From the NCBI GenBank assembly GCA_947561395.2, contig OX387190.1, positions 17,230,858 through 17,294,857 of the forward strand: DNA of 64,000 bases. The letters are read 5' to 3'. The notes beneath the pieces are model-generated. The model did not search any database and was not told the origin of the DNA. It saw only the letters and a program-made list of their open reading frames with translations. A program made the translations under genes and the position numbers. This DNA comes from Buxus sempervirens (Eukaryota; Streptophyta; Magnoliopsida; Buxales; Buxaceae). Below, piece after piece: positions 7,456 to 29,852 of the stretch (its first letter is position 1; every line of letters starts with the position of its first letter).

Positions 7456-7582
7456 CTGCGCTACACTGGTCGTGGCAACACACAAGGCCATGTGTAGACA
7501 CCCCAAATTGCACAAACAATCATCAAAAATCATTATCTCCTGGAAAGCCAGCACAGAATTTGAAGAAAATAAACTTTTACCT

Positions 7583-7723
7583 GTATCCGGATACTCAATC
7601 CGGATACAAGTACCCCTGCCCGTATCCGGATACTCATACCGGATACATGTGAGCCCTAGCGTATCCGGTACCATGTACCGGATACCTTAAGGTCCTTTGT
7701 TATCCGGTCTAATATACCGGATA
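7583..7723 (+). promoter_or_regulatory. Four phased dyads TATCCGG-N9-CCGGATA in the LTR promoter
   Basis: The dyads occupy 7584-7606, 7623-7645, 7662-7684 and 7701-7723. Each is 23 bp long with perfect half-sites. Centres are at 7595, 7634, 7673 and 7712, exactly 39 bp apart. The first and third have longer perfect arms (10 and 11 bp). The cluster ends 157 bp before the TATA box. The same four sites are kept in the 3' LTR at 27666-27805. Confidence 0.93.
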
Positions 7724-7880
7724 CCTTAAGTTTGCTCAAAATTAGGGTTTTCCGAGAGCTTTTCACTTTTACCATCATGTCCCTCATTAAATGAGGGGAA
7801 ATCGCGGAAATAACCTTAGGGTTTAGGTTGGAGGGGTTCTAGACATTAATTTGTGTCTACCAATGACCTTAGCCTTTGCC

Positions 7881-7888
7881 TATAAATA
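7881..7888 (+). promoter_or_regulatory. TATA box of LTR
   Basis: TATAAATA lies in a CCTATAAATAGG context, repeated at 27963-27970 in the 3' LTR. It is the likely promoter for the genomic RNA, with transcription expected to start about 30 bp further on. Confidence 0.8.
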
Positions 7889-9656
7889 GGAGCCTCCTCC
7901 TTGAGCAAATGGCACACAACTCTTGTTTTGAATTCTCGCAAAGAAGAACTCCAAGAGAAGAAGAAAACCGCTGTGGAATCGCCTCCAGTACTCAGGTAAG
8001 CCTCAACTTTTCTTTTTATTTTCTGTCTTTACATTCCTAGATCTAGATCTCTTCTTCTACCTTTCTGTAGTGTAAAGCCTTGTTTGTGTGTGGAAATCCT
8101 TCCCCGGCTCAAAGTATCTCAAGACTCCCCTAGCCGTAAAACGTGAAGGCGGATCTAGGAGAAACGAGACTGGGGATTGACCCTAGTGCTAGAACCCATG
8201 TAGCGTAAGGCTTTTGATTGATTGTAAACCGTTCCATATTCAAAGTACCCTTGATTATCTTAAAGAGAACAGAGGGAAACGATAATGGAACGGAACCCTA
8301 GGCTATGCTAGAACCTATTTTGTTGAATCTATATGCATGTTGTATTGATCTTGTTTGGGTTTTTACACTTGCACATACATTACACTATTTTGGCGGGATA
8401 GGCTCATATTTGGGGTTTATTGCATTTATTGTGATAAATCTCAAATAAATGGCCTCAATCAATTCTGGAGTGTTTTTAAATGTTTTTCAAAGGTTTTGGA
8501 TTCATCTCACACGAATCACATATTTTTTATCAATTTTCGGACTTGGATTTCTTCAAAAGTGGCTTAACTTGACAGCACCTGTACCCTTACTTCGGACGCC
8601 CATAACTTCATCATCCGGATGAATTTTGGGGTGATTCCAGAACCATGGGAAAGGTGAGGCTGTCTAGGTTATGTCCACCAAATTTCATGAATTTCTATCT
8701 AGCCGATTTTTGACACTTCTCTGTCGAAGTTAGGTGGACAGTTCAGGTCCAAGTACAGAACTTGTCACTTCGACGGACCGCCATGTGTTCGTTTAAAGTC
8801 CGATTCAAGTGATTTTTATTTCTGGGTACTCCTTTATGAGTCTATTTTCAAATCCAGTTAGTTTCATAATTTTTGGATTCCATTTGAATTATTGGTAGCC
8901 GATTTACTCAGAACTGCTCATTTGAATTTTTCTGGGTAAATCTGTGATCTTCGGGGCCTGTTCGGGAGACCACCCAAGGCACATCCGAAGGGATTTTTGT
9001 ATGAGGCTAGTTTCTGTTGAAAGATGGCCATACAGACTTCAATCACACCAAATTTCGTGGATTTCGATGTAGTGGATTTTTCTAGACAATTTTCCAAAGT
9101 TGCCCACTTACCACTTTTAAAAATCCCCAGCAGCAACTTTAAAGGAGCATAACTCCTAGGATTTTTATCGGAATGGATTGAAATTTTGCATGAAACTTTT
9201 ATTTACCTTAATCTTTCAAATAAATTTGGTTTGGTTCAATTTAATATTGGATTTGAATGATTTTAAGGCAAATGTCATACTTTTTCTAAACTTCCCGGAT
9301 TTGATTTAACTTGGTTTTGATCAACTTTTACTTTGATTTCCATCTTTTGAAATACTCCAGAAGTGATATTGACATAAGAGAAGATCTAAAATCCATTTGG
9401 ATCTTCATGTGAATATATCATACACTTGTTCCTTTTTTAAGGCTTTTTCATGATTTTTAGCAAGCTTCTTATTTTCTTTTTAGCATGAACATACACTTGG
9501 CAACCACTTCGTGTGGATGAATGGGGGTGCCTAACACCTTCCCCCGTTCATAATCTAATCCCCTTACCCATCTCTGGATTTGATTTTCAAGTAGGGTTAT
9601 TTTTATCCTAGAATTTGTCTTTTGGCTATTTTTGCCTACTTTTGAATCTTTGGTGT

Positions 9657-9693
9657 CCATTCTCACCCCAAAATCATGAATGGTGGCGACTCT
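9657..9693 (+). promoter_or_regulatory. U5 hairpin directly abutting a PBS-like TGGCGACTC
   Basis: CCATTC (9657-9662) pairs with GAATGG (9678-9683). TGGCGACTCT begins at the very next base, 9684. TGGCGACTC equals the 5' part of the complement of the tRNA-Arg 3' end, yet lies 84 bp before the true primer-binding site. Equivalent structures occur at 36535-36566, 52674-52706 and 61444-61476. Confidence 0.75.
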
Positions 9694-9767
9694 CCCAACT
9701 TTTGCGTTGAGCCCGTGTGTTGACGGAGGGACGATCACTCCGGTGATTTTTTCCCATGTCTCACAAC

Positions 9768-9785
9768 TGGCAACTCTGCTGGGGA
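9768..9785 (+). promoter_or_regulatory. Primer-binding site, tRNA-Arg type
   Basis: TGGCAACTCTGCTGGGGA starts two bases after the LTR. It is nearly the complement of the 3' end of plant tRNA-Arg(ACG), TGGCGACTCCGCTGGGGA, with two mismatches. A tRNA-Arg primer is usual in Tat/Ogre elements. Confidence 0.88.
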
Positions 9786-11188
9786 CTTGTGGATTTAAGC
9801 CTATTTGTGTATATTCATGCTTTTTCATCACTTTTGAATGCTTGCTATTTTGTTTACTTTATTGGTGTATATTGGTGTATTCTAAATCTGATTGGGATAC
9901 TTTTAAATTTTACATTGATGAAGGCATGTGTGTATGCTTGGATATGCTAAGGATCATGTTTAGGGCCTTACCTTGTTGTGCATGCCTACTTGTTTTTGTT
10001 TGCCTTGGGTTAGGAGGTTTTTAGTGGCATGATTTGAGCATGAAAACATTGAGCAAAAATCTGTAAATACAGTAGCCATTAAGATGGTTTTCAAGCATGT
10101 TTTCCCTCATGAAAACACTTTTGTATCATGTCAAGTAGTTGCTAAATTTTTAGGCATTAATTTGGGGGTATAAGGGAAGCACTTTGGAGCATGAAAATTC
10201 TGGAAATTTCAGTGTATATTTGGGGAATTTCAAGCATGTTTTACCTCATTGAAACACTTTTGAACCATGTCAAGTAGTGCTAAAATTTTAGGCTCCAATT
10301 TGGGTAGAAATGGTACACTTTGAGCATGAAAAAGAGCATGAAATCTGGGATTTTAGGGAATGCTTTTGGGTTTCAAGCATGCTTACATGATTTAATGGTT
10401 GTTTGTACAAATGACATGTTTTGTATAACACTTTTTGGGCATGTAATATTTTTTGTGCATATTTAGTTGTTTTGGTGCTTGCTTGCTTGTATTTAGCTTC
10501 ATTATCTTTGTCATTAGTACCTTGGCTTGAAATTGAAGGCATGGCTACGAAAAAGAGTGGCAAGGGGCTGGGACGTTGTGAATGTTACCACAATTTAAAA
10601 TTGCACTTGAGCACTTGAAACAATTTGCACAGCCTACCCTTTTACCTATTAGGAAGTTGAACCATGAATGTGTGTAGCTTGGCGCACCGAGGTCGTGACT
10701 TCGGAAAGCGAAAGTGAAAACATTTACCTTAGAATTTGGGTCAATGATGTGATGACAATGGGATCTGTGATTCGATTCCGGGCATCACTAGACTTGAGTT
10801 TTAAGTTGCCAATTAAGCCAAAACCCAAAAACCATACGCTTGAAGGTGAAGAAACACGTTTTCGGCTAAAAGCACACAATTGCGTTTGGGGAAATTGGGT
10901 GTAAATGTGGGAAGGCCGTTTGCATGTTTTACAGGCCAAGGTATAATGTGAATACCATGTTGAATGAAGGTAATACAAGGTGGCAAGGTAAAGCCATGTT
11001 CTTTTCCTAAATTTAGGGAATTTTGCAAGTATGATGTCCAAGCCCAATTTGGGGCAAGTTTTGAAGGTCAAATTAAGGTGAACATCAATTGGGAATGAAA
11101 AAAAATCAAATCTGGTGAAAAAATGAGTCAAAAAGGGCCATTTCGGCAATTACCGGCAACTCAGGCCGGTTAATAATAACTGTATTCA

Positions 11189-11288
11189 TATCCGGTACAT
11201 ATATCCGGATACAAAGACATATGCGCATATCCGGATAGATTGACCGGATACAATAAGGCATATCTTATCCGGTATATTATACCGGATA
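11189..11288 (+). promoter_or_regulatory. Three phased dyads TATCCGG-N9-CCGGATA in the leader
   Basis: Sites are at 11189-11211, 11228-11250 and 11266-11288, with centres 39 and 38 bp apart. All six half-sites are perfect. No clear TATA follows on either strand nearby, unlike the other clusters. Confidence 0.9.
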
Positions 11289-11584
11289 CATTCAAAAAAG
11301 TGCACAAATTGGCTGTTCAGCCCAAATTTTCAGAATAAAATGCCTAAAACACTGTGGATAATCCTTAGGCACCCCGAAAAGAACATAAGAAATTTTCCCA
11401 AAAAATACAAAATCAAAGGAAAAAAAACAAAAAAAAGAATAAAATAAAATATTCTTTCAGGATTTAACCTAAGTTTGAAAATCAAAGAGGAAACCAAGGT
11501 GTCATATTTTTCGACACCAACTCAACTCAAACATATGTCAATCCAGCTTTAGAACTTGAAAATCTTCTAAAATGCATCAGATTT

Positions 11585-12440
11585 CAAATAAAAAAAATAA
11601 TGAAAACCTTGGTTGGTTATTTTTATCAATCAAATCAAAAAAAGTGGGACACTTGGAAGCCCTAGAATATTCCATGAAAACCTTGGTTGGTTATTTTTAT
11701 CAATCAAATCAAAAAAAAATGAAAACCTTGGTTGGTTATTTTTATCAATCAAATCAAAAAAAAGTGGGACACTTGGAAGCCCTAGAATATTCCATGAAAA
11801 CCTTGGTTGGTTATTTTTATCAATCAAATCAAAAAAAAAATGAAAACCTTTGGTTGGTTATTTTTATCAATCAAATCAAAACATTTGTGGGATACTTGGA
11901 AGCCCTAGAATATTCCAAGACACCTTTGGTTGGTTATTTTTATCAATCAAATCAAAACATTTGTGGGATACTTGGATAGAATATTCCAAGACACCTTTGG
12001 TTGGTTATTTTTATCAATCAAATCAAAACATTTGTGGGATACTTGGAAGCCCTAGAATATTCCAAGACACCTTTGGTTGGTTATTTTTATCAATCAAATC
12101 AAAACATTTGTGGGATACTTGGATAGAATATTCCAAGATACCTTTGGTTGGTTATTTTTATCAATCAAATCAAAACATTTGTGGGATACTTGGAATCCCT
12201 AGAATATTCCAAGACACCTTGGTTGGTTATTTTTATCAATCAAATCAAAAAAAAATTTTGGGACCCTTGGAAGCCCTAGAATATTCCATGAAAACCTTGG
12301 TTGGTTATTTTTATCAATCAAATCAAAAAAAATTGGGACCCTTGGAAGCCCTAGAATATTCCATAAAAACCTTGGTTGGTTATTTTTATCAATCAAATCA
12401 AAAAAAATTATGGGACCCTTGGAAGCCCTAGAATATTCCA
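11585..12440 (+). repeat. Tandem repeat, about 12 copies of a 43-78-bp unit
   Basis: The core GGTTGGTTATTTTTATCAAT plus CAAATCAAAA recurs about every 43-78 bp. Linkers carry GGGAYACTTGGAAGCCCTAG and AATATTCCAWGA. Unit subtypes alternate (CATTTGTGGG or AAAAGTGGGAC linkers), which suggests local duplication of blocks. It is read through as long ORFs only because unit lengths are often multiples of three. There is no protein family here. Confidence 0.9.
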
Positions 12441-12625
12441 ACACAAAATCAAAACAAAAAAAAATCTGGATTGGTGTTCACCTAACCTACTGGTTTACAT
12501 ATATAGGGGTGTGACTCAAGTTAAATGGAAGCTAACATGTTCTATTCATTTTTTTTTCATCAGGTACATTCAACCCAGGTACACTTGCAATCATTGCTCC
12601 AGTAACTAGATCCAAAGCCAGAACA

Positions 12626-13885
12626 ATGAATACTGAAGAGAACCAAGCCCAAGCTACCGTCCCTGCTCAGGACTTTACTCAACTGCAGGAGCAAGTGGCC
12701 GGTCTGGCCAAAATGCTGGGGGACCTACTGGCGGCTCAAGCCCAACAGGCCCAAGCCCCGAACCAGGCATCTACTTCCCATCAGGCACCACCACCTCAGG
12801 CCTACATTCCGCCTCCGGTTCAGCCCATGCCTGAGCCCATTTCTGAACCAGTCCCTGAACCCATTCTGATCAGGGAAAATATGGCGGAGTCTGAGAAAGA
12901 GCTGGAGAAAGAAAAGGCCCGAGATGAGATGGAAAAGAAGATGCTGCTCAGGATAGAGAGGATCCAGGCAGAGCTGAAGGAAGTGAAGGGGGGAGGCAGC
13001 CATGCAGGCACCACCTTCGAAGACCTGTTCATGTACCCAGACGTCTGTCTACCGGCTAAGTTCAGGTGCCCAGACTTCGATAAATTTGATGGCACGGGCT
13101 GCCCATTGAGCCATCTCAAATTATACTGCGGGGCCCTGTGCCAGTTTGGCCGGGATGATGGCATACTGATCCAGCTCTTCCAGAGGAGTCTGACCGGGTC
13201 AGCCCTTCGGTGGTTCGCTACAGTGGACCATGGAAGGATTAGAAGGTGGAAGGACTTGGCCGATGCTTTCTTGGACCAGTACAAGTTCAACTCGGAGATC
13301 GTGCCAGACCGGTACGACATGATGAGGATGACCAAGGGGAAAGATGAACCGGTACGGCAGTACGCCAAGAGATGGAGAGAGGCCGCCTCCCAGGTCAGGC
13401 CACCTATGCAAGAGCCGGATATGATCTCCACATTTATGGGCACACTGGGCCAACCCTTTTACAACCATCTGGTGGGTCAGATCACCACCAACTTTGCAGC
13501 CCTGGTACAGGTAGCGGACCGGATCGAGGAAGGGGTCAGGTCAGGACGGCTGATAGACTACTCCACTCTGACTGGGCAGTCTGAGTCCTCGGCCTCCATG
13601 GCCCAGAAGAAAGGGGCCGGATTCAAAAAGACGGGGGCCCGAAAAGAAGGGGAGGTGAACCTGGTCCAGGCTCCTCCAGCCAAGAAGCCACTGCACGTCA
13701 ACATCTCGGCACCCCAACAGGCCCAGCAGGCCCAGCAGTCGTACCAGACCCCGCTGAATGTCAACTTCTCTCCTTCCGTGCCAGCTAACACAAGGAGGAG
13801 CGGGATGCCTGGTTCGCAGCAAGAAAGAACCGGGTTTTCACCCCTCTACCCATATCGCTGTCCCAACTACTGCCAACCCTGCTGA
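12626..13885 (+). CDS. gag: Gag polyprotein of Tat element (frameshifted at C-terminus)
   Basis: The 419-codon ORF has an N-terminal Q/A/P-rich segment (residues 35-85), a charged helical stretch (90-120) and then the retrotransposon gag core from about residue 135 to 320. Recognisable core motifs are FRCPDFDKFDG, SLTGSALRWF, WKDLADAFLDQYKFN and VRQYAKRWREAASQ. The protein forms the virus-like particle shell. Family resemblance breaks off near residue 390. From about 13790 the expected continuation (ERDAWFAARKNRVFTPLP) is in the next frame, so the last 30 residues are a frameshift artefact. The start at 12626 is the first in-frame ATG and follows a non-coding leader. A programmed shift cannot be excluded, but no classic slippery site was seen. 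Confidence 0.9.
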   Translation: MNTEENQAQATVPAQDFTQLQEQVAGLAKMLGDLLAAQAQQAQAPNQASTSHQAPPPQAYIPPPVQPMPEPISEPVPEPILIRENMAESEKELEKEKARDEMEKKMLLRIERIQAELKEVKGGGSHAGTTFEDLFMYPDVCLPAKFRCPDFDKFDGTGCPLSHLKLYCGALCQFGRDDGILIQLFQRSLTGSALRWFATVDHGRIRRWKDLADAFLDQYKFNSEIVPDRYDMMRMTKGKDEPVRQYAKRWREAASQVRPPMQEPDMISTFMGTLGQPFYNHLVGQITTNFAALVQVADRIEEGVRSGRLIDYSTLTGQSESSASMAQKKGAGFKKTGARKEGEVNLVQAPPAKKPLHVNISAPQQAQQAQQSYQTPLNVNFSPSVPANTRRSGMPGSQQERTGFSPLYPYRCPNYCQPC

Positions 13886-13896
13886 AAGGGGAGTAC

Positions 13897-16320
13897 TTGA
13901 CTCTAAAGGAGCCTAACCCAAATGCCCCGAAGGGGAGAAGTTTTGACACATCAGTCACCTGTGATTTCCACATGGGTGCACCGGGGCATTCTACAGATAC
14001 CTGCTGGGTATTGAAGCATGCGGTCCAGGACCTGTTGGACCAGAAGGCGTTGGTCTTTAACACTGCTGCACCCGCCCCGTCGGGAAATGATATTGGGCAG
14101 AACCCTCTGCCGTACCACAATGGGGCAGGCCCATCCAACTCCATCACTGCCATATCCACCACAAGAAGGGCCTTTGACCCATCTCAGCTCATAGCACCTG
14201 TGGGGACTACAGTCCAGGTCCGATTCTTCCCAGAAGAGGACGAAGAGGAGATCAACATGGTCTCCCAAAAAAACAATCTTGCTGCTGAGGACATAAGCTC
14301 CTCCTTAAATCGGGTCTCTTCTCTGATGGCCCAGATAAATACTGCAAGGCCCCCATTGGTCTTCAATTGCAGTCCATCCACTTGTTCCCCATCCAAGCCG
14401 TCTAAGGCTCCACTGGTCATCAATCTTGACCCCACTACTGCTTCCATCACTTCTTCTGTCCCCACCAAATCCAAACTTCAACACCTGGTTGTAAATGTGC
14501 AGCCAGCCCATACTATCCCTAAACCGGCCCATACATCCCGGTCCAAACTCCAGCCATTAGTGGTTAACATCCCTAAATTAGCCTATTCAGAGGCCGCTGT
14601 ACCATGGAACTACAGCGAGGGAACCACGGCTACGGTTCCAATGGTCAGGAACCAGAACCAGGAGGAGGTGAACCTCATGACGAGGTCGGGGAGATGTGCA
14701 GGTGGTGAAGAGAAGGAGAAAGAGACAGAAGTAGAAAAAGAAAAAACAGAAAAAGAAAATGAAGAAAAAAGAAAACAGAAAGGAAAAAATAAAGTAGGAG
14801 AAGACACCCCCCAGGGTGCAGAAAATGAGGCAGCAGACCTCATAAAAATAATAAAGAAAAGTGAATTCAATCTTGTGGACCAGCTAAACAAGGTCCCGGC
14901 CCAGATTTCAATACTGGGCCTTTTGCTGAATTCTGAAAAGCATAGGGATGCATTGTTAAGGGTGCTACAAAGTGCACACGTATCCCAGACTATTGATCCG
15001 GACCAGCTTGGTAAAATGGTTGGTCAAATCTTGTCACATAATGTGATAAGTTTCTCAGAGGGTGAGATCAGCCCAGGTGGGTGTTATCATGTGGACCCTT
15101 TGCACATCACTGTGCTTTGTAAGGGCTGCATGGTTGCACGGGTTTTAATTGACAACGGGTCGGCATTAAACGTTTGCCCGTTAATCACTTTTACCAAGCT
15201 GGGCCTGGACCAGTCAAGGATCAAACGGAATGGGCGGATAGTGAGGGCTTTCGATAGCTCCAAGACCCACTCCCTAGGGGAGATTGAACTGCCAGTCACA
15301 ATTGGGCCGAATATCTTTAACATCACATTTGAAGTGATGGATATACCCGCAGCCTTCAATCTGCTCCTAGGAAGGCCGTGGATACATTCGGCTAGGGCAA
15401 TACCATCCACGCTCCACCAAAGGGTGAAATATGTAAGAGGGCAAAGGGTGATAACAGTCCTAGCCGAAAACTTGGTGCCACCCATTGTGTCATCTGATGT
15501 ACCATTAATCAATGTGGACTTGACTGTCGACAAGATTGCATTCCACTCATTTCAATTTGAGGCGGTAAATTACATACCTGGGGGGTGTGAGAAAAAGAAA
15601 GAAAAGGGGACCACTGCAGAAAGGATGGTCAAGAAAGTGATGGAGAAATACCACTTTCACCCAGGGAAAGGCCTGGGGATCAATCTGCAGGGGATGGTGG
15701 AGCCAATCATGGCTAAGAAACTGATCCCCAAGGTAGGGTTGGGCTTCAAGCCCAGAGGTTGGAGAAGAATGAAATATGAAGAAGGGGAAAGCAGAAGCAG
15801 AGGAAAACTCCCGCATCTGAGGGTGAATTTCCCTAAACCCGCTTATATAATCCAAATTTCTCCTCCCATGGACCAGTCCAAGCCTCCATACCACAACCTT
15901 AACCCATTTCAAAAGCCTCTTGTTTCGGCCCTCCAATCCTATAACCCTTCTCCAATACTGGGAGCAGCAGATGGGCCTGGACCACAGCCCGAGCAGCAGT
16001 CAGACTATTCTGAAGATGTTGGGGCATTCTTCGCCATGACTGAGGGCGAAAAGACAGGGGCAGACATGGAACTACCATTCATTGACTGGGCCGCAGTAAA
16101 GGTTCCAGACAAGGTCATTTCTGGATTGGGCCCCGCAGCAGAAAAGGGTAGTACCCACCCGGTGATGATGGCATCGGATGCTGGGCTTGAAGAGCAGGCT
16201 TTCCCTATTTCCCCTGCTCCCAAAAATTTTGTACTAAACAATTGGGAGGAAACTCCCCTTACCTTTGAAGCAGCGTTAGTTCGGCAAACTGACGTAGCTT
16301 CCAAAAAAAAACTCCAATAG
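13897..16320 (+). CDS. pro: Gag C-terminal zinc finger, aspartic protease and G-patch region of Tat polyprotein
   Basis: The frame is open and family-like from about 13790. The listed start is only where the ORF becomes separable from gag. A Cys/His finger (C22, H25, H31, C36; CDFHMGAPGHSTDTC) belongs to gag. Residues 260-310 are a Lys/Glu-rich linker. The protease core has VLIDNGSALNVCP at about residue 416-428 (DNG in place of DSG/DTG, common in Tat), followed by FNLLLGRPWIH. A G-patch-like motif (FHPGKGLG) lies at about 585-595. The ORF closes at 16320 just after an A9 run (16303-16311). The following ORF continues the polyprotein in another frame, so a one-base slip in the A-run probably broke it. 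Confidence 0.88.
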   Translation: MTLKEPNPNAPKGRSFDTSVTCDFHMGAPGHSTDTCWVLKHAVQDLLDQKALVFNTAAPAPSGNDIGQNPLPYHNGAGPSNSITAISTTRRAFDPSQLIAPVGTTVQVRFFPEEDEEEINMVSQKNNLAAEDISSSLNRVSSLMAQINTARPPLVFNCSPSTCSPSKPSKAPLVINLDPTTASITSSVPTKSKLQHLVVNVQPAHTIPKPAHTSRSKLQPLVVNIPKLAYSEAAVPWNYSEGTTATVPMVRNQNQEEVNLMTRSGRCAGGEEKEKETEVEKEKTEKENEEKRKQKGKNKVGEDTPQGAENEAADLIKIIKKSEFNLVDQLNKVPAQISILGLLLNSEKHRDALLRVLQSAHVSQTIDPDQLGKMVGQILSHNVISFSEGEISPGGCYHVDPLHITVLCKGCMVARVLIDNGSALNVCPLITFTKLGLDQSRIKRNGRIVRAFDSSKTHSLGEIELPVTIGPNIFNITFEVMDIPAAFNLLLGRPWIHSARAIPSTLHQRVKYVRGQRVITVLAENLVPPIVSSDVPLINVDLTVDKIAFHSFQFEAVNYIPGGCEKKKEKGTTAERMVKKVMEKYHFHPGKGLGINLQGMVEPIMAKKLIPKVGLGFKPRGWRRMKYEEGESRSRGKLPHLRVNFPKPAYIIQISPPMDQSKPPYHNLNPFQKPLVSALQSYNPSPILGAADGPGPQPEQQSDYSEDVGAFFAMTEGEKTGADMELPFIDWAAVKVPDKVISGLGPAAEKGSTHPVMMASDAGLEEQAFPISPAPKNFVLNNWEETPLTFEAALVRQTDVASKKKLQ

Positions 16321-18209
16321 TGGATTGCCATTTCCCTGAAGGTTCTAATGGGCCTTCGTCTTCAGGGGAATTATGTTTAGAAGGCCCACAAAAAACCCAA
16401 AAAGATTTTTCTGTTTTTTCTAGAAAATTTAAATTTTTCAAAAAGGTCCAAACCACTTATGAACCATATAATCAGACCGAATTGGACCAGGTTGAATATG
16501 ACTTCGACCTTGAGCTCGACTTTGATCTCATGGGGGTCGAAGAAGAGACCGAGGTCGAAGAAGAAGACGTTCCAAAAGAAATTGAATACCAATTGGAACG
16601 TCATGAAAAGGGGGTCCAACCTAATATTGAGGAGACCATATCCATAAATCTTGGGACCGAAGAGGACCCAAAAATTGTGAAAATCGGGTCATGCTTGTCT
16701 AATGTGCAGAAAATTGAAATGTCACAATTCTTGGCAGATTACAAGGATGTGTTTGCTTGGTCGTATCGGGACATGCCGGGGTTGGACACTGACATGGTGG
16801 TGCATAAGTTGCCGATTTTACCAGGGGTTAAGCCAATCAAGCAGAAGCTGAGAAGATTGAAACCTGAGTGGACTCTGAAGGTCAAGGACGAAGTGGTCAA
16901 GCAGTTCCAAGCTGGATTTCTGGCAGTCTCTACGTACCCAGAGTGGCTCGCGAACATAGTGCCGGTACCGAAGAAGGACGGGAAGGTCCGAATGTGCGTG
17001 GATTATAGAGACTTGAACAGGGCAAGCCCAAAGGACGATTTTCCGCTTCCACACATCGACATTCTGGTCGATAATACTGTGGTACATAGCCTGTTTTCCT
17101 TCATGGATGGGTTCTCAGGATATAATCAGATCAAGATGGCTAAGGAAGATCAAGAGAAAATAGCATTTATCACACCGTGGGGCACATTCCACTATACAGT
17201 CATGCCGTTTGGGCTTAAAAACGCTGGGGCGACATACCAGCGGGCCATGACAGCATTATTCCATGACATGATCCATAAGGAGATGGAGGTCTATGTGGAC
17301 GATATGATTGCCAAATCCTGCAGAGAGGAGGACCACTTGATCAATCTGAAGAAAGTGTTTGATCGGCTCAGGAAGTACAGTCTACGGCTTAACTCGGCTA
17401 AATGCGTCTTTGGGGCTACATCAGGGAAGTTACTGGGGTTTATAGTGAGCCGAAGAGGAATTGAAATTGACCCGGCTAAAGCCAAGGCCATAATTGAAAT
17501 GCCAGCACCCAGAACCGAGAAGGAGGTCAGGGGGTTTCTTGGAAGAATTCAATACATAAGCCGGTTCATAGCACAGCTCACTGCTATCTGTGAACCAATT
17601 TTCAAACTTCTAAGGAAAGATAACCCTACGGTCTGGAATGAGGACTGCCAGCAGGCATTTGATACAATAAAGAGGTATTTACTGAACCCACCGGTACTAG
17701 TGCCACCAACTCCAGGAAGACCACTGATCCTGTACTTGTCAGTGTTGGAAACGTCAATGGGATGTGTCTTGGGGCAGCATGATGAGACTGGTAGAAAAGA
17801 AAGGGCCATTTACTATCTGAGTAAAAAATTCACGGAATATGAAGCCAAGTATTCACCATTGGAAAAGACTTGCTGTGCTCTAGTGTGGGCAACTCAGAGG
17901 CTAAGGCATTACTTCCTTAGTCACTCCACACTATTGATATCCCGGATGGACCCGCTGAAATATTTATTTGAGAAACCGGCACTGACTGGCAGGACGGCAA
18001 AGTGGCAACTGCTACTGTCCGAATTTGACCTCATATACATCACCCAGAAGGCGATCAAGGGTCAAGCCATAGCTGATCACCTGGCTGCACATCCTTTGCC
18101 AAAATATCAACCCTTGAAGACCAACTTCCCAGATGAGCAATTCTGTACACTGAAGAGGAGGAAAATGAGAGTTCTTGGTAGATGTTCTTTGATGGGGCCG
18201 CCAATATGA
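16320..18209 (+). CDS. pol: Reverse transcriptase and first RNase H of Tat polyprotein
   Basis: Residues about 130-165 carry the conserved DVFAWSYRDMPGLD motif. The RT fingers/palm run through residues about 180-400, with MCVDYRDLN, the first catalytic Asp in FMDGFSGYNQ (D263) and the catalytic YVDD at 325-328. The connection and first RNase H follow (VLGQHDETGRKERAIYYLSKK). In Tat elements this first RNase H is usually degenerate. The true frame is lost near 18140 and the ORF ends in 20-odd unrelated residues overlapping the next ORF. RT copies the genomic RNA into DNA inside the particle. Catalytic residues look intact, but the flanking frameshifts should prevent a full polyprotein. Confidence 0.93.
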   Translation: MDCHFPEGSNGPSSSGELCLEGPQKTQKDFSVFSRKFKFFKKVQTTYEPYNQTELDQVEYDFDLELDFDLMGVEEETEVEEEDVPKEIEYQLERHEKGVQPNIEETISINLGTEEDPKIVKIGSCLSNVQKIEMSQFLADYKDVFAWSYRDMPGLDTDMVVHKLPILPGVKPIKQKLRRLKPEWTLKVKDEVVKQFQAGFLAVSTYPEWLANIVPVPKKDGKVRMCVDYRDLNRASPKDDFPLPHIDILVDNTVVHSLFSFMDGFSGYNQIKMAKEDQEKIAFITPWGTFHYTVMPFGLKNAGATYQRAMTALFHDMIHKEMEVYVDDMIAKSCREEDHLINLKKVFDRLRKYSLRLNSAKCVFGATSGKLLGFIVSRRGIEIDPAKAKAIIEMPAPRTEKEVRGFLGRIQYISRFIAQLTAICEPIFKLLRKDNPTVWNEDCQQAFDTIKRYLLNPPVLVPPTPGRPLILYLSVLETSMGCVLGQHDETGRKERAIYYLSKKFTEYEAKYSPLEKTCCALVWATQRLRHYFLSHSTLLISRMDPLKYLFEKPALTGRTAKWQLLLSEFDLIYITQKAIKGQAIADHLAAHPLPKYQPLKTNFPDEQFCTLKRRKMRVLGRCSLMGPPI

Positions 18210-20832: not shown

Positions 20833-22555
20833 CTAGTGTCCCAGCCGCTCCTCAAACTCCCGAATCCGGGCTGCCTGAGCTGCAATGACTCCTGAAGCCC
20901 CCTCTGCAGCGGGATCACTCAAGAAGGAAATGACCTCATCTGAAAGGGCCTGCCTGATCCGCATACTCCTAAGGCTGGCCAAAGTATCCTGGTACTTCTG
21001 CCGGATCATACGGACCTCGAAGCGACGGGCCTGCCTCTGCTCCTCCAGCTTCTCTTCCACGGCAATACGGCGTGAGATCTGCTCTTCAAGCTGCCTCTCC
21101 AGATAAGCACCCTGTATCCTGAGCTCCTGGGCCTCCCGTACCCATATCTGCTGAAGCCGCTTATGAGAAGCTCGCTCAGACTCTAAAATGTCCTCATAAG
21201 TAGGAGCCAAGATTACAGGAGGATCTTCGGGTACTGGGGCCTGAGTCTGTATCTGTTCCTTGATCCAGAAGAGATAATCCTTCACATGGGCTTCTGAGAA
21301 GACTGGACCATGCATGAAGCGGACACAGGACCACTCCTTCATCAACCAGACATTCAGCTTCATAGAAAGGGGCCCAAGACGATCCTCATATCCACTTGGG
21401 ATGATAATCCCCTGGGTCGCTCGGAACTGACGAAGGACCCGCAGAGGAAGATAAAGCACTGCATGCCTCAGGCCAGCCAGAATCAGAAAGTTGCGGTTTC
21501 GGAAGCTAATCACTGTCTCCGCATTAGGCTGATAAGTACCAGGCCATCTCACCTGGTCATCCTGAAGCGAGCCCAAGAAAGTGAACCAGCCCTGTTTGCC
21601 CCCTGGAATATCGGGGCACCCCCTGTTGCTCATCAAGAGAGGGACTTTTAGACTCGGGAAGAAGTGTCGATTGATCTCTTCAATCTGGCTCAAATGATCA
21701 AGGAGCCAAAGCTGTAAAGGAAGAGAGATGTGTCAGCACATTGTACAAAAAAAAAAAAAAAAGCAAAAAAAAAAAAAAAAAGCAAAAAAAAGGCAAAAAG
21801 AAAGCCAAAAAAGCAAGGAAAAAAAGAAAAAAAAATTTTTTTTTTACCTGCAGGATCTGGGCACATGCTAGGAAGCGTTTCGACTTCCTATTGTAGCAGT
21901 CGGTCAAGGCCTGATACATCCCAGCCAAAATCATAGGGGCCAACCTCTCCCGCTCCCTAACCTGGCATATCACGGAAATCAAGGCCAAGTCCACCTCGTC
22001 ATCCTCCCGTGGGAAAAGCAACTGGTTGACCACTATCAGGGTCAACGCATTGAATCGGGCCTCCTTATCTTCTCCCCTCAAGAGCTTCTCAGTCAAAAAA
22101 GCCTTAGATAGGGTCAAAAGGGTGTCAGAATCCCCCAAGTCCTTCTTCCCTATGCCCAAAAAAGTAGAAGCTTCCTTCTTGTAACTGGGCCTAAGAGGTG
22201 GATTCACCACCTTCTCATCAAACCTCAGGCCCAGGATGGTTTCCACCTCCTCAATAGTTGGGGTCATCTCATGGGTCCCAAAACGGAACAGATTGAGATC
22301 AGGAACCCAATGACCAATCATGGCCTCTATAATCTCCCACCTGAAGGGAACCTTGGGAATGAGCAGGGTATGACCTAGATTAGTAGAACCCCATCTCCTC
22401 TCCTCATCTAGGGTCATAGAGTTAACCCACCTGGTGTAAAAGGAATCCACAGGGTTGTACCTGGTGAGATTTGGGGGTTTTGATCTAAAAGGCTGTTTTG
22501 CAGGGGAGGCAGTGTGGACAGACAATAACGGGGCAGAAGATGATTCGGATTCCAT
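20833..22555 (-). CDS. Antisense two-exon gene, DUF7745/plant-mobile-domain-like protein with coiled-coil tail
   Basis: Exon 1 is 22555-21848 and exon 2 is 21711-20833, with a 136-bp GT-AG intron between them in phase 0. The reading frame is fully open across both exons and gives about 528 residues. The N-terminal part resembles proteins found antisense in Tat elements: an FYTRW region, WEIIEAMIGHWVPDLNLFRF and TPTIEEVETILGL. Residues about 410-525 are rich in heptad-like Glu/Arg/Leu repeats (coiled coil). A further ATG at 22648 is in frame, but 22555 follows the TATA (22672-22666) at a normal distance and avoids a Phe/Leu-rich lead. The intron is almost pure T on the coding strand, as in plant introns. 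Function is unknown. Family assignment is by eye. Confidence 0.85.
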
Positions 22556-22665
22556 TGGATTTGACGGGAGCAAGCTAGAACTCAAGAGGAGGAAGAAAAA
22601 GGCGAAAAAGGGGGTTTCTAAACTCAAAAACTCGTAAAAAATGCTCAAATCCCGAGGCAGGTTAC

Positions 22666-22824
22666 ATTTATAGCATCTTTTAACATATCCGGTAACTCAG
22701 ACCGGATACAAAGGCTTTGGTAATATCCGGATAAGTATACCGGATACAAAGGATTCCATGAATATCCGGTATCACATACCGGATACAAAGACCAATCAAT
22801 GTATCCGGTATGTCAGACCGGATA
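22666..22824 (-). promoter_or_regulatory. Promoter of the two-exon antisense gene: TATA plus four phased dyads
   Basis: TATAAAT on the minus strand at 22672-22666 lies 110 bp before the start codon. Directly upstream (14 bp) are four dyads TATCCGG-N9-CCGGATA at 22686-22708, 22724-22746, 22763-22785 and 22802-22824. Centres are 38, 39 and 39 bp apart and all half-sites are perfect. This is the same module as in the LTR. Confidence 0.88.
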
Positions 22825-23047
22825 CCGAGAAAAAATGCAAAAAAAGAGCTAAGGATGAAAAAATCCGAATTTTTTACCTGTTTTACCTGCTTACATGTCA
22901 TAATTGCATAAAATTGAGAACAAAAGATGTGCAAGACATGATAGAATGAATAAAAAGTTTTTTTCATACATATCTGGAAGTTTTGTACAGAGATGATGAT
23001 ATAAATACATGAAAATGAAAAAAATCCTAATCTACTCCTATGCAGGA

Positions 23048-25728
23048 TCATCCCCCGCGTCCTCGGCCGCGTCCACCTCTACGGCCTCTCCCCCAAAGTG
23101 CTCGGCCTCTAGAGTATGCAAGGATCCGCTCGGCTGCATGGCGAGGATGCCGACCTACCACCTGCTGAAGATGATACTCTAAGCAATAATCCTCGAGATC
23201 TGGGGGAGGAGCAGGAGTAGAATCTGGGGAAGAAGCCTCGGGCTCAGCAGCAACCGGCCCAACTGGGCCCTCATCCAAAGCATCCTCTGCTCCCGCAGCT
23301 CCAGAAGGCCCAGCATCAGCAGCAGAGGGGCCCGGATCAGAAGTAGCTGAGTCCACAGAAAAGAGAAAAATCAGAAGACTCAGATATAAGAAAGAATAAA
23401 AGAGGAGAATTAAAAGAAGATCATACCAGGAATGTCTGCAGAAGGAGCAGGAGGATCCGGCTCGTCAGGATCAGCAGCTGGGACATCCACAGGATCAGAG
23501 GCCCGAGCAGGAGATGGGTCAGGAATCAGGAAATCATGCTCAAAGAAGGCATCCTGATCATGGACCGGGCCCTGCACAAGTCAAACAAGCATATCAGAAC
23601 AGCAGAAACAGGAAAATGAAAGAAAAGAAAATATAAGAAGGCCAGATACCTGTCTAGCCTGGAGCTCAGCAACCAGGGCCTCTAGCTCCCTAATCCGGGC
23701 ATCCCGCTGGGCCACGACCGCATCGTGCTCAGCGATCATATCATCGATCGCGGCCCGCTGACTCTCAAACCGGTCCCGGATGGTATTCAGCTCGTGTACC
23801 TGCCAGCAAGAACAGAAGCAGGATCAGAAATACATAAAGGAAGAAAAGATGAAGATATGAAAAGTACAAGACTTACGGTGTCTTCATGGATCCGGATACG
23901 GATCCCGCCGATCTCGGTCACCCTGGCACGAGTGGGTCGATCCATCAAGCATCCAATAGACACCCTCTGGAACCACTCGTCGTAATCTCCGGCTACTGTG
24001 AGCCCCTCTGCATCCAGAAAATGATCAAACTGATCCACGTCGAAGCCGGGAAGGAGTGTGTCGGGACCCACAGGAGGAGGAGGGACGGGGATGCGAAGTG
24101 CACTGGTGTGCTGGAAGTACAGGCGCTCTCCTAAGTACATCACCCTACCAAGCCTCCCGAGGAAGCACTGGTAGGGCTGACGTCGTCGATCTCTATCGAA
24201 GGCGTCCTGTACCGCCATCTCACGAGCCACTCCAACATCCAAGTCATCAAATCGGGACAGGAGGAGCTGCAAAAAAGGGAAACTGTCAGGTACAGTCAAA
24301 ATACAGGAAAGGAAATAAAAGAAAAGGAAAAGATAAAAGGCTTACATCAGATCGGCGGGCACGATCTAAGTGCACCCGGGCAGTGCGAGGCTGGCTCCTA
24401 TCGGCATCTCGGACCTGGGCCGACCACCGCAGGGCCACAGGGAAATCCGCAACCTCAGGAACCGGGGAGGGGCGGAAGAAGGTCATATAGGTGTACATGA
24501 ACACCTAAAAAAAGAAAAATCAGTCAAGAAAAGATAAAGCCTAAGGACTTAAACCAGACAGATGAATGCAATACCTGTAGAATCTGCCAGAAGAACCGGC
24601 TGCTAACTCCATCACCTCTTGGAGATGCTAAGCCTCGAACCGCTCGGCACAGCCCGGCCAAGATGGTCCCATAGATGAGCCGACCCCATGCTAGCTGGCG
24701 GGTCTGATGGAGATCTCTCAAAGCGTCCAAAAAGAGCGGACTGACACCGGTAGTATCCTCCGGGAAGAAGCAGCTCCCCAGCATCAGCAAGAATACGTGC
24801 CAAAAGATAGGAATAAATGCAGCATCATCCACAGCCACAGTCCTGTGCCTCCCCTCAAAATGTCGAGCCAGACTCTCCCGCAGCCAACTAACGGAGAGCC
24901 GGCCACTCCGCCCATCCCAAGCAGTAGGAGGCAGGGCCTGATATCCCAAAAGAAGTCCCATATCCTCCGCAGAAGGCCACTCCAAGACAATGGTCCGCCC
25001 CGTCAGAGGAATGCCCGTAATCATCACGAAATCGGAGGGGCGGATCCCCAGCTCCACGTCCGGCAGATGGAATGACTGCGTCTCGGGGAAATATCTCTCC
25101 ATCATGGCAAAAATAAGTGGACGGTCGGCTCTGAATGATGGAATACTGAGGAAGTGATCCAGGTGGCATCTCCCAAACTCCCGCCTGAGTGCCGGAGAAA
25201 GTGACTGTGCCAACTCACTGAATCTGCCCCAGCTACCGCGCAGATGAGAAGAATGGTACGGAAGCGGCACATCCGCCCTGATGCACATGGAAGGATGGCT
25301 ATCCAAGCCATGGAGAAGCTCTGTATCCTGAACAGAGGCCCTCAACTCCTCAGAGACCCCGGCCAGAGCCACAGCAACCCCCTCCGGAGCCGTATCTCTG
25401 ACTCTGACTCTGCCTCGGCCTCTACCACGGCCTCTCTCGCCCTCAGGGGCCTGATCCGGAACTCTGCCTCGGCCTCGGCCTCGACCATGAGCGGGTGCAA
25501 CCACGGGATAAATTTCAAAGGAACAGCGTGAAGATTTGTGTAGAAAGGAGAATGGAAGAAAGAAAAGAGAGAAAGGGCTTGAAAGCCTACCTCAGCAGAG
25601 CTCTCTCGAGAATCGCCTAATGGCTCGGACAGGGTGGCACTAGAACTAGTCTCAATCCGAGCTCGAGAAGAAGAAGGCCGGTCGGCCGGGTCAACCTCCT
25701 CACGCACACGAGAGCGACTCCTAGCCAT
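23048..25728 (-). CDS. Antisense seven-exon gene with plant mobile domain (aminotransferase-like)
   Basis: Exons, 5' to 3': 25728-25591, 25450-24575, 24504-24346, 24266-23877, 23799-23650, 23571-23427, 23346-23048. All introns are GT-AG, short (70-140 bp) and T-rich. Phases join without a stop to give about 718 residues. Only the exon 2 acceptor (25452-25451) is a choice among candidates. Residues 50-75 are an Arg/Gly repeat. The core in exon 2 resembles the plant mobile domain (MERYFPETQSFHLP, MITGIPLTGRTI, FIPIFWHVFLLMLG). Exon 5 is a short coiled coil, exons 6-7 are Pro/Ala/Asp-rich, and the C-terminus is an RGG-type tail (WGRGRRGGRGRGRGG). Mobile-domain proteins occur both as host silencing factors (MAIN family) and inside transposons. 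The role here is unknown. Confidence 0.85.
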
Positions 25729-26897: not shown

Positions 26898-26975
26898 CTT
26901 ATAAAACATGGGGGATCCGGATACTCAGACCGGATACCCGCAGGCCTTGGATTATCCGGATATACCTACCGGATA
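26898..26975 (-). promoter_or_regulatory. Promoter of the seven-exon antisense gene: TATA-like box plus two phased dyads
   Basis: TATAAG on the minus strand at 26903-26898 is preceded 11 bp upstream by two dyads at 26914-26936 and 26953-26975. Their centres are 39 bp apart. One outer base of the first is G instead of T. Spacing to the TATA matches the other antisense promoter (14 bp). A + strand TATAAAA reading of the same spot is possible. Confidence 0.75.
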
Positions 26976-26977
26976 CC

Positions 26978-27170
26978 AAAGAAAAAAGAAAAAAAAATAG
27001 AAAAAAACAGAAAAAAAACAGAAAAAATAGAGAAAAAAACAAGGAAAAATGGAGAAAAAGAAGAGAAAGGAAAAAATAAAAAAAAAGAGAAAAGAAAAAA
27101 AAAAGAGAAAAAAAAAGAAAAAAAAAGAGAAAAGAAAAAAAAAGAGAAAAAAAAAGAAAAAAAGCAAACT
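26978..27170 (+). repeat. Purine tract (AAAAAG/GAAAA)
   Basis: About 190 bp is almost pure purine on the + strand, built of AAAAAAGAGAAAAG-type units. ORFs across it are low-complexity artefacts. It lies upstream of the seven-exon gene promoter. Confidence 0.85.
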
Positions 27171-27189
27171 TGTGCTATAATTCTTACTA

Positions 27190-27440
27190 TTTTCTCAAAA
27201 ATCCTATTTTTGTCTTGAAATCCACTTCACAGCCACGAGAGCTCTGTGGAATTTGGGACAACTCTGGGAAATGTGCCTGGTCAAAAGGATGATATCCACT
27301 CAATTTTCAACTTGGTTTGATAAAAAATCAGTTTTTCAAAAAATCCTATTTTTGGGCTTAAAATCCACTTCACAGCCACAAAGGGCTCGGTGGAATTTAA
27401 GAACTCTTGGAGAGATGCCCCCTTAAAGTGAGGGCTTTTT
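27190..27440 (+). repeat. Two diverged copies of a sequence of roughly 100 bp before the 3' LTR
   Basis: Both 27196-27290 and 27340-27430 contain AATCCTATTTTTG, ATCCACTTCACAGCCAC and a GGTGGAATTT or TGTGGAATTT stretch in the same order. They are about 145 bp apart. There is no coding content. Confidence 0.7.
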
Positions 27441-27559
27441 GGCAAATCTCCACTCAAAAATGGTTTTCTACAGAAATTGAATTGAACCGAGCAAATCATG
27501 CTCAAGGGAATGCAATTTGGGCTTGTCTACTCTTTGCAGATCACTGCTTCGCAGCTCCC

Positions 27560-27574
27560 ACAAAGAGGGGCAGT
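27560..27574 (+). promoter_or_regulatory. Polypurine tract of Tat element
   Basis: ACAAAGAGGGGCAGT immediately precedes the 3' LTR (TGTAGACACCCC at 27575). It is the expected primer for + strand DNA synthesis. Confidence 0.75.
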
Positions 27575-29852
27575 TGTAGACACCCCAAATTGCACAAACA
27601 ATCATCAAAAATCATTATCTCCTGGAAAGCCAGCACAGAATTTGAAGAAAATAAACTTTTACCTGTATCCGGATACTCAATCCGGATACAAGTACCCCTT
27701 CCCGTATCCGGATACTCATACCGGATACATGTGAGCCCTAGCGTATCCGGTACCATGTACCGGATACCTTAAGGTCCTTTGTTATCCGGTCTGATATACC
27801 GGATACCTTAAGTTTGCTCAAAATTAGGGTTTTCCGAGATCTTTTCACTTTTACCATCATGTCCCTCATTAAATGAGGGGAAATCGCGGAAATAACCTTA
27901 GGGTTTAGGTTGGAGGGGTTCTTGACATTAATTTGTGTCTACCAATGACCTTAGCCTTTGCCTATAAATAGGAGCCTCCTCCTTGAGCAAATGGCACACA
28001 ACTCTTGTTTTGAATTCTCGCAAAGAAGAACTCCAAGAGAAGAAGAAAACCGCTGTGGAATCGCCTCCAGCACTCAGGTAAGCCTCAACTTTTCTTTTTA
28101 TTTTCTGTCTTTACATTCCTAGATCTAGATCTCTTCTTCTACCTTTCTGTAGTGTAAAGCCTTGTTTGTATGTGTGGAAATCCTTCCCCGGCTCAAAGTA
28201 TCTCAAGACTCCCCTAGCCGTAAAACGTGAAGGCGGATCTAGGAGAAACGAGACTGGGGATTGACCCTAGTGCTAGAACCTATGTAGCATAAGGCCTTTT
28301 TGATTGATTGTAAACCGTTCCATATTCAAAGTACCCTTGATTATCTTAAAGAGAACAGAGGGAAACGATAATGGAACGGAACCCTAGGCTATGCTAGAAC
28401 CTATTTTGTTGAATATATATGCATGTGTATGGATCTTGCTTGGTTTTTTTCACTTTTGCACACATATCACTATTTTGGCGGGATAGGCTCATATTTGGGG
28501 TTTATTGCATTTATTGTGATAAAACTCAAATAAATGACCTCAATCAAATCCTGGAGTATTTTAAAATGCTTTTCAAAGGTTTTGGATTCATCTCACACGA
28601 ATCACACACTTTTTGTCAATTTTCGGATTTGATTTTCTTCAAAAGTGGCTTAGCTTGACAGCACCTGTACCCTTACTTCGGACGCCCATAACTTCATTAT
28701 CCGGATGAATTTTGGGGTGATTCCAGAACCATGGGAAAGGTGAGGCTGTCTAGGTTATGTCCACCAAATTTCATGAATTTCTATCTAGCCGATTTTTGAC
28801 ACTTCTCTGTCGAAGTTAGGTGGACAGTTCAGGTCCAAGTACAGAACTTGTCACTTCGACGGACCGCCATGTGTTCGTTTAAAGTCCGATTCAAGTGATT
28901 TTTATTTCTGGGTACTCCTTTATGAGTCTATTTTCAAATCCAGTTGGTTTCATAATTTTTGGATTCCATTTGAATTATTGGTAGCCGATTTACTCAGAAC
29001 TGCTCATTTGAATTTTTCTGGGTAAATCTGTGATCTTCGGGGCCTGTTCGGGAGACCACCCAAGGCACATCCGAAGGGATTTTTGTATGAGGCTAGTTTC
29101 TGTTGAAAGATGGCCATACAGACTTCAATCACACCAAATTTCGTGGATTTCTATGTAGTAGATTTTTCTAGACAATTTTCCAAAGTTGCCCACTTACCAC
29201 TTTTAAAAATCCCCAGCAGCAACTTTAAAGGAGCATAACTCCTAGGATTTTTATCGGAATGGATTGAAATTTTGCATGAAACTTTTATTTACCTTAATCT
29301 TTCAAATGAATTTGGTTTGGTTCAATTTAATATTGGATTTGAATGATTTTAAGGCAAATGTCATACTTTTTCTAAACTTCCCGGATTTGATTTAACTTGG
29401 TTTTGATCAACTTTTACTTTGATTTCCATCTTTTGAAATACTCCAGAAGTGATATTGACATAAGAGAAGATCTAAAATCCATTTGGATCTTCATGTGAAT
29501 ATATCATACACTTGTTCCTTTTTTAAGGCTTTTTCATGATTTTTAGCAAGCTTCTTATTTTCTTTTTAGCATGAACATACACTTGGCAACCACTTCGTGT
29601 GGATGAATGGGGGTGCCTAACACCTTCCCCCGTTCATAATCTAATCCCCTTACCCATCTCTGGATTTGATTTTCAAGTAGGGTTATTTTTATCCTAGAAT
29701 TTGTCTTTTGGCTATTTTTGCCTACTTTTGAATCTTTGGTGTCCATTCTCACCCCAAAATCATGAATGGTGGCGACTCTCCCAACTTTTGCGTTGAGCCC
29801 GTGTGTTGACGGAGGGACGATCACTCCGGTGATTTTTTCCCATGTCTCACAC
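27575..29852 (+). repeat. 3' LTR of Tat element
   Basis: This is a near copy of 7493-9765 with scattered substitutions and small indels, densest around 28420-28630. It retains the four dyads (27666-27805), TATA (27963-27970) and TGGCGACTC (29770-29778). It is followed by the TSD ccatg. Confidence 0.96.

Follow-up and report, generated by a model that had tools for sequence, protein, structure and literature searches.

Dyad arrays at sense and antisense promoters of an Ogre/Tat-type retrotransposon of Buxus sempervirens: probable binding sites of a dimeric protein

Repeated regulatory boxes are present in Tnt1-type U3 regions and, to our knowledge, are not shared there with internal antisense promoters. 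Sireviruses, in the sections of the published account used here, carry palindromic RM boxes that are repeated many times in the LTR upstream of the TATA box, the core being CGG-CCG in most; these boxes recur upstream of the extra ENV gene where it is present, their clusters lie next to CpG islands, and their sequence is family-specific, being AATCCGGCTWRCCGGATT in Citrus (Bousios et al. 2010, PMC2829016). Short motif arrays are also described, in the excerpt on which we rely, in non-coding parts of VANDAL elements, with a motif that differs between related families and with binding by VANC shown (PMC5735166). In the portions cited, gene23 of Grande is reported to have its own promoter and a nuclear product, and tandem repeat arrays occur in roughly half of the Retand clusters, their commonest place being the stretch from pol to the 3' LTR (PMC7264820, PMC11963269).

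The window, that is the whole stretch of 64,000 nucleotides analysed, contains at 7493-29851 an element which, judged by its domain order and its plant mobile domain (PMD) content, is a Ty3/gypsy retrotransposon of the Ogre/Tat type. Its features are the following.

7493-9765, plus strand: 5' LTR, 2,273 bp, start TGTAGACA, end CTCACA; target site duplication CCATG at 7488-7492
7584-7723, plus strand: U3 array of the 5' LTR, four dyads (7584, 7623, 7662, 7701), 39-bp step
7881-7890, plus strand: LTR TATA box TATAAATAGG, 157 bp past the U3 array
9768-9785, plus strand: PBS-like TGGCAACTCTGCTGGGGA directly after the 5' LTR, possibly resembling the Ogre tRNA-Arg PBS
11150-11288, plus strand: leader array, one decayed dyad (11150) and three perfect ones (11189, 11228, 11266)
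12626-13885, plus strand: gag ORF (PF03732)
13897-16320, plus strand: G-patch ORF (PF01585)
16320-18209, plus strand: reverse transcriptase (RT) and RNase H ORF
18182-19906, plus strand: ORF with additional RNase H (PF13456), then integrase (rve)
20833-22555, minus strand: antisense gene A, exon 1 22555-21848 and exon 2 21711-20833 (inferred splice), 528 aa, DUF7745/PMD
22666-22672, minus strand: gene A TATA box TATAAAT, 13 bp from the array
22686-22824, plus strand: gene A promoter array, four dyads (22686, 22724, 22763, 22802)
23048-25728, minus strand: antisense gene B, several exons, partial model, PMD in ORF 24527-25591
26898-26903, minus strand: gene B TATA-like box TATAAG, 10 bp from the array
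26914-26975, plus strand: gene B promoter array, two dyads (26914, 26953)
27575-29851, plus strand: 3' LTR, 2,277 bp; target site duplication CCATG at 29852-29856
27666-27805, plus strand: U3 array of the 3' LTR, four dyads

Two traits of the Ogre lineage are present: an extra RNase H between RH and INT (18182-19906), which the source consulted in part gives as common to Ogre and Retand, and a plant mobile domain in an extra ORF, here PF10536 in both antisense genes, given there for 57% of Ogre elements (PMC6317226). The Pfam search of the scanned antisense ORFs returned PMD/DUF7745 only, and the Retand trait TRP28 (PF04195) had no match in six antisense ORFs and the spliced gene A, three small downstream exons of gene B lying outside the scan. 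The only named relative of gag with E below 1e-30 was from Linum (41%), and an RT pattern search of viral contigs gave 8 matches, none of them a relative. The two LTRs are 98.2% identical (36 substitutions over 2,272 aligned positions), and the CpG loss between them, 2 of 54, is too small to bear on the dyads.

The dyad TATCCGG-N9-CCGGATA has 19 matches in the window at up to three mismatches, as against a mean of 1.37 and a maximum of 4 in 100 shuffled windows. Seventeen are those reported in an earlier sequence-only reading, whose count of 33 perfect half-sites out of 34 was re-found, 16 dyads being perfect and one (26914) having G for T. The centre-to-centre distance of 38 or 39 bp given for every cluster also held on re-measurement, CCGG-to-CCGG steps running 13, 26, 13, 26 (25 in two places). 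A match at 20985 looks like chance. The leader cluster had been described as three dyads; these three are perfect, but a decayed dyad at 11150 (TTACCGG..CCGGTTA) lies in their 39-bp register, so this array also comprises four. The word "phased" applies in the sense of periodic and not of same-face, since 39 bp corresponds to about 3.7 helical turns. Likewise, spacer sequences do vary, as had been stated, but not at random. In the 13 distinct dyads that remain once the 3' LTR is set aside, all 26 halves carry A or T just inside the half-site, a rule that is not general, dyads of other copies having C there; G precedes the right half in all 13 and the left half in 5 of 13. Moreover, the first dyad of every cluster has an ACTCA core, and because of this the clusters probably share a remote ancestor.

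At the scale of the 676-Mb genome, exact matches to the dyad occur at 28,399 places, and at 5 for the reversed control. Gaps of N0-8 account for 39 places (control 5) and gaps of N10-30 for 396 (control 48), so that N9 is 65 times commoner than all other gaps together (28,399 vs 435). The 39-bp step is found at 17,900 places (control 0), as against 442 (control 37) for steps of 26-38 bp together and 3,966 (control 56) for steps of 40-63 bp together, the latter being mostly within-array overlaps among the matches listed. The locus-level counts of spacing, covariation, TATA boxes and decayed dyads were made without L001-L004 and L025, which duplicate other loci or the window; those of spacing take in near-identical copies and, for some elements, both LTRs. 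A double-dyad pattern gave 0 matches in viral contigs and 0 in genome contigs, in collections that may omit the window's own genome.

The half-sites are conserved where the bases between them have diverged. With one LTR copy from each of nine elements, pairwise divergence was 0.020 in the half-sites, 0.295 in N9 and 0.271 between dyads, the bases between having diverged about 14 times as much as the half-sites; the upstream flank stood at 0.247, but the downstream flank is also conserved (0.061), which tells against a reading by binding. The gene A promoter, compared in 31 of 35 sequences (four were set aside because their arrays were lost or had become shorter or longer), gave 0.016 for half-sites, 0.044 for N9, 0.123 between dyads, 0.115 upstream and 0.046 for the 5'UTR with its TATA box; at 0.016, the coding part is here no less conserved than the half-sites, a second point against it. 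At least three dyads are kept at 28 of 30 gene A loci, window included. The earlier rejection of duplication is only partly right: single units have been gained or lost in register (five dyads in L026, three in L028, a remnant in L046), and some of the spacing may go back to duplication of units. C>T or G>A accounted for 32 of the 59 changes seen in the cores of decayed dyads, which is not decisive.

Position relative to promoters was then considered. Of 72 arrays, a set with many near-identical copies and both LTRs of some elements, 42 have an outward-facing TATA motif within 40 bp; a random 40-bp stretch has one in 3.6% of cases, and each array has two flanks. The array-to-TATA distance is short and steady at gene A and L008-type promoters. 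An element in which PMD was not detected has no array from INT to the 3' LTR. On the other side, the U3 array of this family and its TATA box are separated by 157 bp, no TATA box lies near the leader and second arrays, and among the six gene B arrays two (L016, L032) are likewise without one. Core-promoter likenesses were scored over 21 pairs with mononucleotide shuffles and uncorrected p values.

The sequence-only reading had raised the possibility that the dyad occurs in a single family, which is not the case. A second Ogre-type family (RT 74% identical in amino acids, synonymous sites saturated), in which PMD was not detected, has kept the arrays in LTRs that are otherwise barely alignable. 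A third family, present in the window and with 12,309 genome copies of its box, has a similar layout built on CCCGTA-N7-TACGGG with a 28-bp step.

34774-34986, plus strand: CCCGTA-N7-TACGGG array in another LTR, boxes at 34774, 34802, 34912, 34940 and 34968 (two with one mismatch), TATA at 35002
35825-35899, plus strand: second CCCGTA-type cluster, three boxes, 28-bp step

The layout common to both box families consists of two boxes, three more that follow at a start-to-start step of 100-110 bp, and a TATA box 12-15 bp further on, and in both the CpG cores are 13 bp apart within each dyad, for the 39-bp as for the 28-bp array. Geometry, position and half-site conservation are seen in the compared copies and in two families.

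We propose that the dyad arrays are probably the sites of a sequence-specific dimeric protein tying the sense and antisense promoters into one regulon. Such a dimer would grip the two half-sites with their CpG cores 13 bp apart. Arrays of two to five dyads adjoin the promoters of the element, lying upstream of the LTR promoter and, at both antisense PMD genes, 10-13 bp ahead of the TATA boxes; the leader has a further one. With one factor at all promoters, the genomic transcript and the accessory genes would form one regulon. The dimeric protein on a repeating array advanced in the earlier reading is well supported at the sequence level, namely by the predominance of the gap N9, half-site conservation and a lack of significant pairing covariation; protein binding, dimer state and action on transcription are inferences. 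We give about an even chance to an upstream activating array whose reader is a transcription factor supplied by the host, and activation is preferred to repression only because the arrays sit upstream of TATA; a point against is that the dyad has been matched to no transcription factor. An element-encoded factor acting in trans comes next, as a possible but doubtful option.

The most serious alternative, which we also consider possible but doubtful, is that the dyads are bound by the element's own antisense PMD proteins, which would autoregulate it or block its silencing in a VANC-like manner. Both PMD genes have an array at their own promoter, the tails of both proteins look coiled-coil-like by eye, and 147 of 150 scored gene A copies, the best 150 of 5,623 first-look candidates, have an exon 1 without stops. 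The different box of the related family with its similar layout is as expected if factor and site co-evolve, and VANC targets are, in the part of the report cited, often tandem motif arrays (PMC5735166). Against this, a young array-bearing element (LTR identity 99.5%) had no PMD by tblastn at 1e-4 over all but about 2.5 kb, and no antisense frame above 147 codons between INT and the 3' LTR. In addition, the PMD model (from a Solanum relative, most of residues 1-286 confidently predicted) matched no solved fold (best PDB E 3.7), and the gene A and gene B proteins are barely alike. The DOWN motif CATGCAGTTT of the MORC1 promoter, linked to the Arabidopsis PMD proteins MAIN and MAIL1, was rejected as the site, since it bears no resemblance to the dyad in the form given in the portion cited (PMC9899485).

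A role of the palindromes as hairpins, in RNA or DNA, for instance as a small-RNA source or packaging signal, is very unlikely. A 7-bp stem with a 9-base loop is possible, Sirevirus palindromes draw small RNAs (Bousios et al. 2016, as relayed in the part cited of PMC10760457), all 13 distinct window dyads have the same plus-strand polarity, and some dyads vary symmetrically (TAACCGG..CCGGTTA). But one loop length is not needed by a hairpin, yet N9 dominates the genome count, and neither the 16-bp spacers (69 sequences) nor N9 (62 sequences; strongest pair 4-6, p 0.08) showed significant pairing covariation, in sets of related sequences where one non-symmetric control pair was also off expectation. 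Least likely of all is an ordinary minisatellite without function, grown by slippage and passively carried by the element. The gain and loss of units, the 38-39-bp repeats called by Tandem Repeats Finder and the first-dyad cores common to clusters would fit it, but half-sites are kept where equally repeated spacers are not, TATA distances are short and steady at gene A and L008-type promoters, and arrays are retained across families with LTRs hardly alignable elsewhere.

The long-standing question of the role and control of the antisense accessory genes of giant plant retrotransposons now has a concrete binding test, with 28,399 sites of identical half-sites. Going further, the arrays could define an element-wide regulon of Ogre-type elements whose dyad code evolves with a fast-evolving DNA-binding reader, for which the antisense PMD proteins, countering host silencing in trans, may be candidates; we regard this as unlikely, but if true the PMD reader would be a retrotransposon counterpart of VANC.

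Our results suggest that a second superfamily, besides that of the Sireviruses, has palindromic arrays at its promoters, and that related families of similar layout can use different box codes. The likeness to Sireviruses lies in a palindromic box with a CGG-CCG core, repeated upstream of TATA (157 bp away in U3) and of an extra gene. However, Sireviruses are Ty1/copia, whereas this element is Ty3/gypsy Tat/Ogre with the order RT-RNase H-integrase, antisense PMD extra genes, a strict N9 and a 39-bp step, no fixed period being described in the sections of the Sirevirus account used here. The antisense gene of Retand encodes TRP28 and not PMD, and its arrays are not described, in the portions cited, as shared with promoters. 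With VANDAL the element has in common short motif arrays in non-coding parts, with a motif differing between related families; VANDAL, in contrast, is a DNA transposon with its own protein family and binding shown, where the present case is read from sequence.

The dyad TATCCGG-N9-CCGGATA is a unit of fixed geometry throughout the 676.5-Mb Buxus sempervirens assembly. Exact matches occur at 28,399 places, against 5 for a control in which the pattern is read backwards. Gaps of 0 to 8 between the half-sites give 39 places (control 5) and gaps of 10 to 30 give 396 (control 48), the latter being mostly overlaps of neighbouring dyads among the matches listed. From one dyad to the next, CCGGATA-N16-TATCCGG, a 39-bp step, is found at 17,900 places and its control at none. 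The N3-15 range gives 442 (control 37), mostly N15 (a 38-bp step) among the matches listed, and N17-40 gives 3,966 (control 56), mostly overlaps within the same array among the matches listed. We also tallied perfect neighbouring dyads up to 200 bp apart in the fetched loci, both LTRs of some elements and near-identical copies included: the spacing was 39 bp in 93 cases, 38 in 24, 37 in one and 103 in one, and 77-79 bp in 13, where one unit is missing or decayed. The sequence-only reading had named random spacing in related copies as the observation that would speak against an operator; since the distances concentrate at 39 and 38 bp, this objection does not apply. Its other expectation, that the dyad be confined to one family, held only in part: the dyad is common in the genome and lies partly in another family, but its geometry there is the same, and the additional copies that we read stand within arrays of identical geometry or remnants of them.

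The array-bearing element of the window is an Ogre/Tat-type Ty3/gypsy retrotransposon with these features:

7493-9765, 5' LTR, from LTR comparison; CCATG flanks the element
27575-29851, 3' LTR, from LTR comparison; CCATG flanks the element
TATA box 22672, ATG 22555, antisense, gene A: two inferred exons, 528 aa
TATA-like box 26903, ATG 25728, antisense, gene B: plant mobile domain (PMD) exon (1.2e-13)

Its LTRs are 98.2% identical (36 substitutions over 2,272 aligned positions). The 5' LTR is followed by gag, a G-patch ORF, RT, RNase H, a second RNase H and integrase, and genes A and B sit between pol and the 3' LTR. The gene A protein matches DUF7745 (2.5e-25) and the PMD (5.5e-19), a domain carried by 57% of Ogre elements according to the available text of PMC6317226. 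The element appears to be inserted inside the LTR of another (flanks 6788-7492 and 29852-31357), whose second LTR, 38640-40842, is 97.4% identical to the split one. Its leader also holds a tandem array (11584-12445) whose units measure about 76, 120 and 147 bp. Another repeat of the window carries 50-bp tandem repeats with ATGAGG..CCTCAT dyads (686-884 and 48238-48424).

A window scan allowing up to 3 mismatches recovered all seventeen dyads reported earlier, together with a decayed eighteenth at 11150, in step with the 39-bp spacing of the leader dyads, and a probably accidental match at 20985; 100 shuffled windows gave a mean of 1.37 matches and a maximum of 4. The reported distance of 38 or 39 bp holds for neighbouring dyads, and the CCGG cores succeed one another at 13, 26, 13 and 26 bp, except that two of the longer steps are 25 bp. 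The spacers do vary, as had been claimed; however, they retain traces of common descent. The 3' LTR aside, there are 13 distinct dyads. In these, A or T stands directly inside all 26 half-sites and G directly before all 13 right halves, always in plus-strand orientation irrespective of promoter direction, and the first dyads of all clusters have an ACTCA core in common within their spacers. In the 16-bp spacers between dyads, read in either direction, C is favoured at position 1 and a purine at position 6, which gives the 39-bp unit near-symmetry about each of its two centres. The first dyad of four other leader arrays (L006, L010, L014, L024) is the symmetric variant TAACCGG..CCGGTTA, from which the window's first leader dyad (11150-11172) differs by one further change.

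Half-sites and spacers diverge at different rates. When the U3 arrays of nine elements were aligned, pairwise mismatch was 0.020 in half-sites, 0.295 in N9 and 0.271 between dyads, with flanks at 0.247 upstream and 0.061 downstream. In the gene A promoter (31 of 35 sequences, four with lost, shortened or lengthened arrays being left out), the values were 0.016, 0.044 and 0.123, compared with 0.115 for the upstream flank, 0.046 for the 5'UTR including TATA and 0.016 for coding sequence. Thirty gene A loci, counting that of the window, were compared, and 28 of them keep at least three dyads. Units have been gained or lost in register, L026 having five dyads, L028 three and L046 about one and a half. 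The array is therefore alive as a tandem repeat, while its half-sites are near-constant.

Similar arrays occur in two further families:

4010, 4049, 4152, 4191 and 4230 of L008, U3 dyads of the second family (4230 with one mismatch)
5136-5275 of L008, second LTR array of the second family
34774, 34802, 34912, 34940 and 34968 of the window, CCCGTA-N7-TACGGG boxes of the third family (two with one mismatch), in an LTR at about 34.6-36.6 kb
35825-35899, second cluster in the same LTR, three boxes starting 35825-35881
101, 129, 229, 257 and 285 of L069, third-family boxes (two with one mismatch), TATA 319

The second family is represented by an Ogre-type element in C1:5916000-5950000, whose LTRs are 99.5% identical. 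Its RT shares 74% amino acid and 66.7% nucleotide identity with that of the window element, synonymous differences being saturated (proportion 0.91). Arrays aside, the LTRs align in short stretches only. One, TTAAGTTTGCT, follows the U3 array and is common to the window element and the second-family LTR L058 (p 0.004 without correction for the 21 pairs tested); another, TGTTCwGCCsAAATTTT, follows the second array and was matched in none of 500 shuffles. The L008 U3 array stands 12 bp before TATATAAAG. In the third family, the window boxes follow 28-bp steps within clusters, with one step of 110 bp, and the array 34774-34986 ends 15 bp before a TATA at 35002. This box is found at 12,309 places in the genome (control 24, gap N7). 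L069 is 82% identical to the window LTR over 444 bp, and a gag about 5 kb downstream, presumably of the same element, is 43% identical to the window element's gag. The third family and L008 have a common layout, namely a pair of boxes and then, one step of 100-110 bp further on, a group of three and TATA, despite unlike box sequence and period; the window element's U3 has four boxes without this gap. In both dyad types the CpG cores lie 13 bp apart.

A dimeric protein that occupies the two half-sites and fills the array would fit three observations: the gap is constant, loop bases show no significant covariation (in 62 N9 sequences and 69 spacers), and arrays tend to lie at promoters. Of 72 arrays (again with both LTRs of some elements and near-identical copies), 42 have an outward TATA motif no more than 40 bp away, against 3.6% per random 40-bp stretch, with two flanks per array. 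Some arrays fit this position poorly: in the window element 157 bp separate the U3 array from its TATA, no TATA is close to leader or second arrays, and the gene B array lacks one in two of six cases. Four dyads span about 140 bp. A 39-bp step amounts to some 3.7 turns, so dimers on neighbouring dyads would face different sides of the DNA.

In the pair formed by the window and C1 elements, internal promoter arrays accompany the antisense genes and are absent without them: from integrase to 3' LTR the C1 element has no dyad and no antisense frame above 147 codons. No PMD was found in its fetched pieces, which cover the region except for about 2.5 kb (tblastn, 1e-4), and this array-bearing element transposed recently. 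We therefore consider that the reader is most likely an activator which the host supplies and the element has hijacked; a less likely reader would be the antisense-encoded PMD proteins themselves, working in trans.

In Retand (PMC11963269) and Grande (PMC7264820), as far as the accessible sections tell, the antisense accessory genes are suspected of a regulatory role, and repeat arrays, sometimes palindromic, are described as frequent in cis-regulatory regions of transposable elements in the available part of PMC10760457. In literature taking in few subscription journals, we found no published report of such dyad arrays in Ogre elements. In Sireviruses, as excerpted from PMC2829016, the LTR has palindromic boxes on the upstream side of TATA, most of them built around a CGG-CCG core, and elements with an ENV gene repeat such boxes ahead of it. 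The arrays described here follow the same plan but belong to another superfamily, accompany other partner genes and have a fixed geometry.
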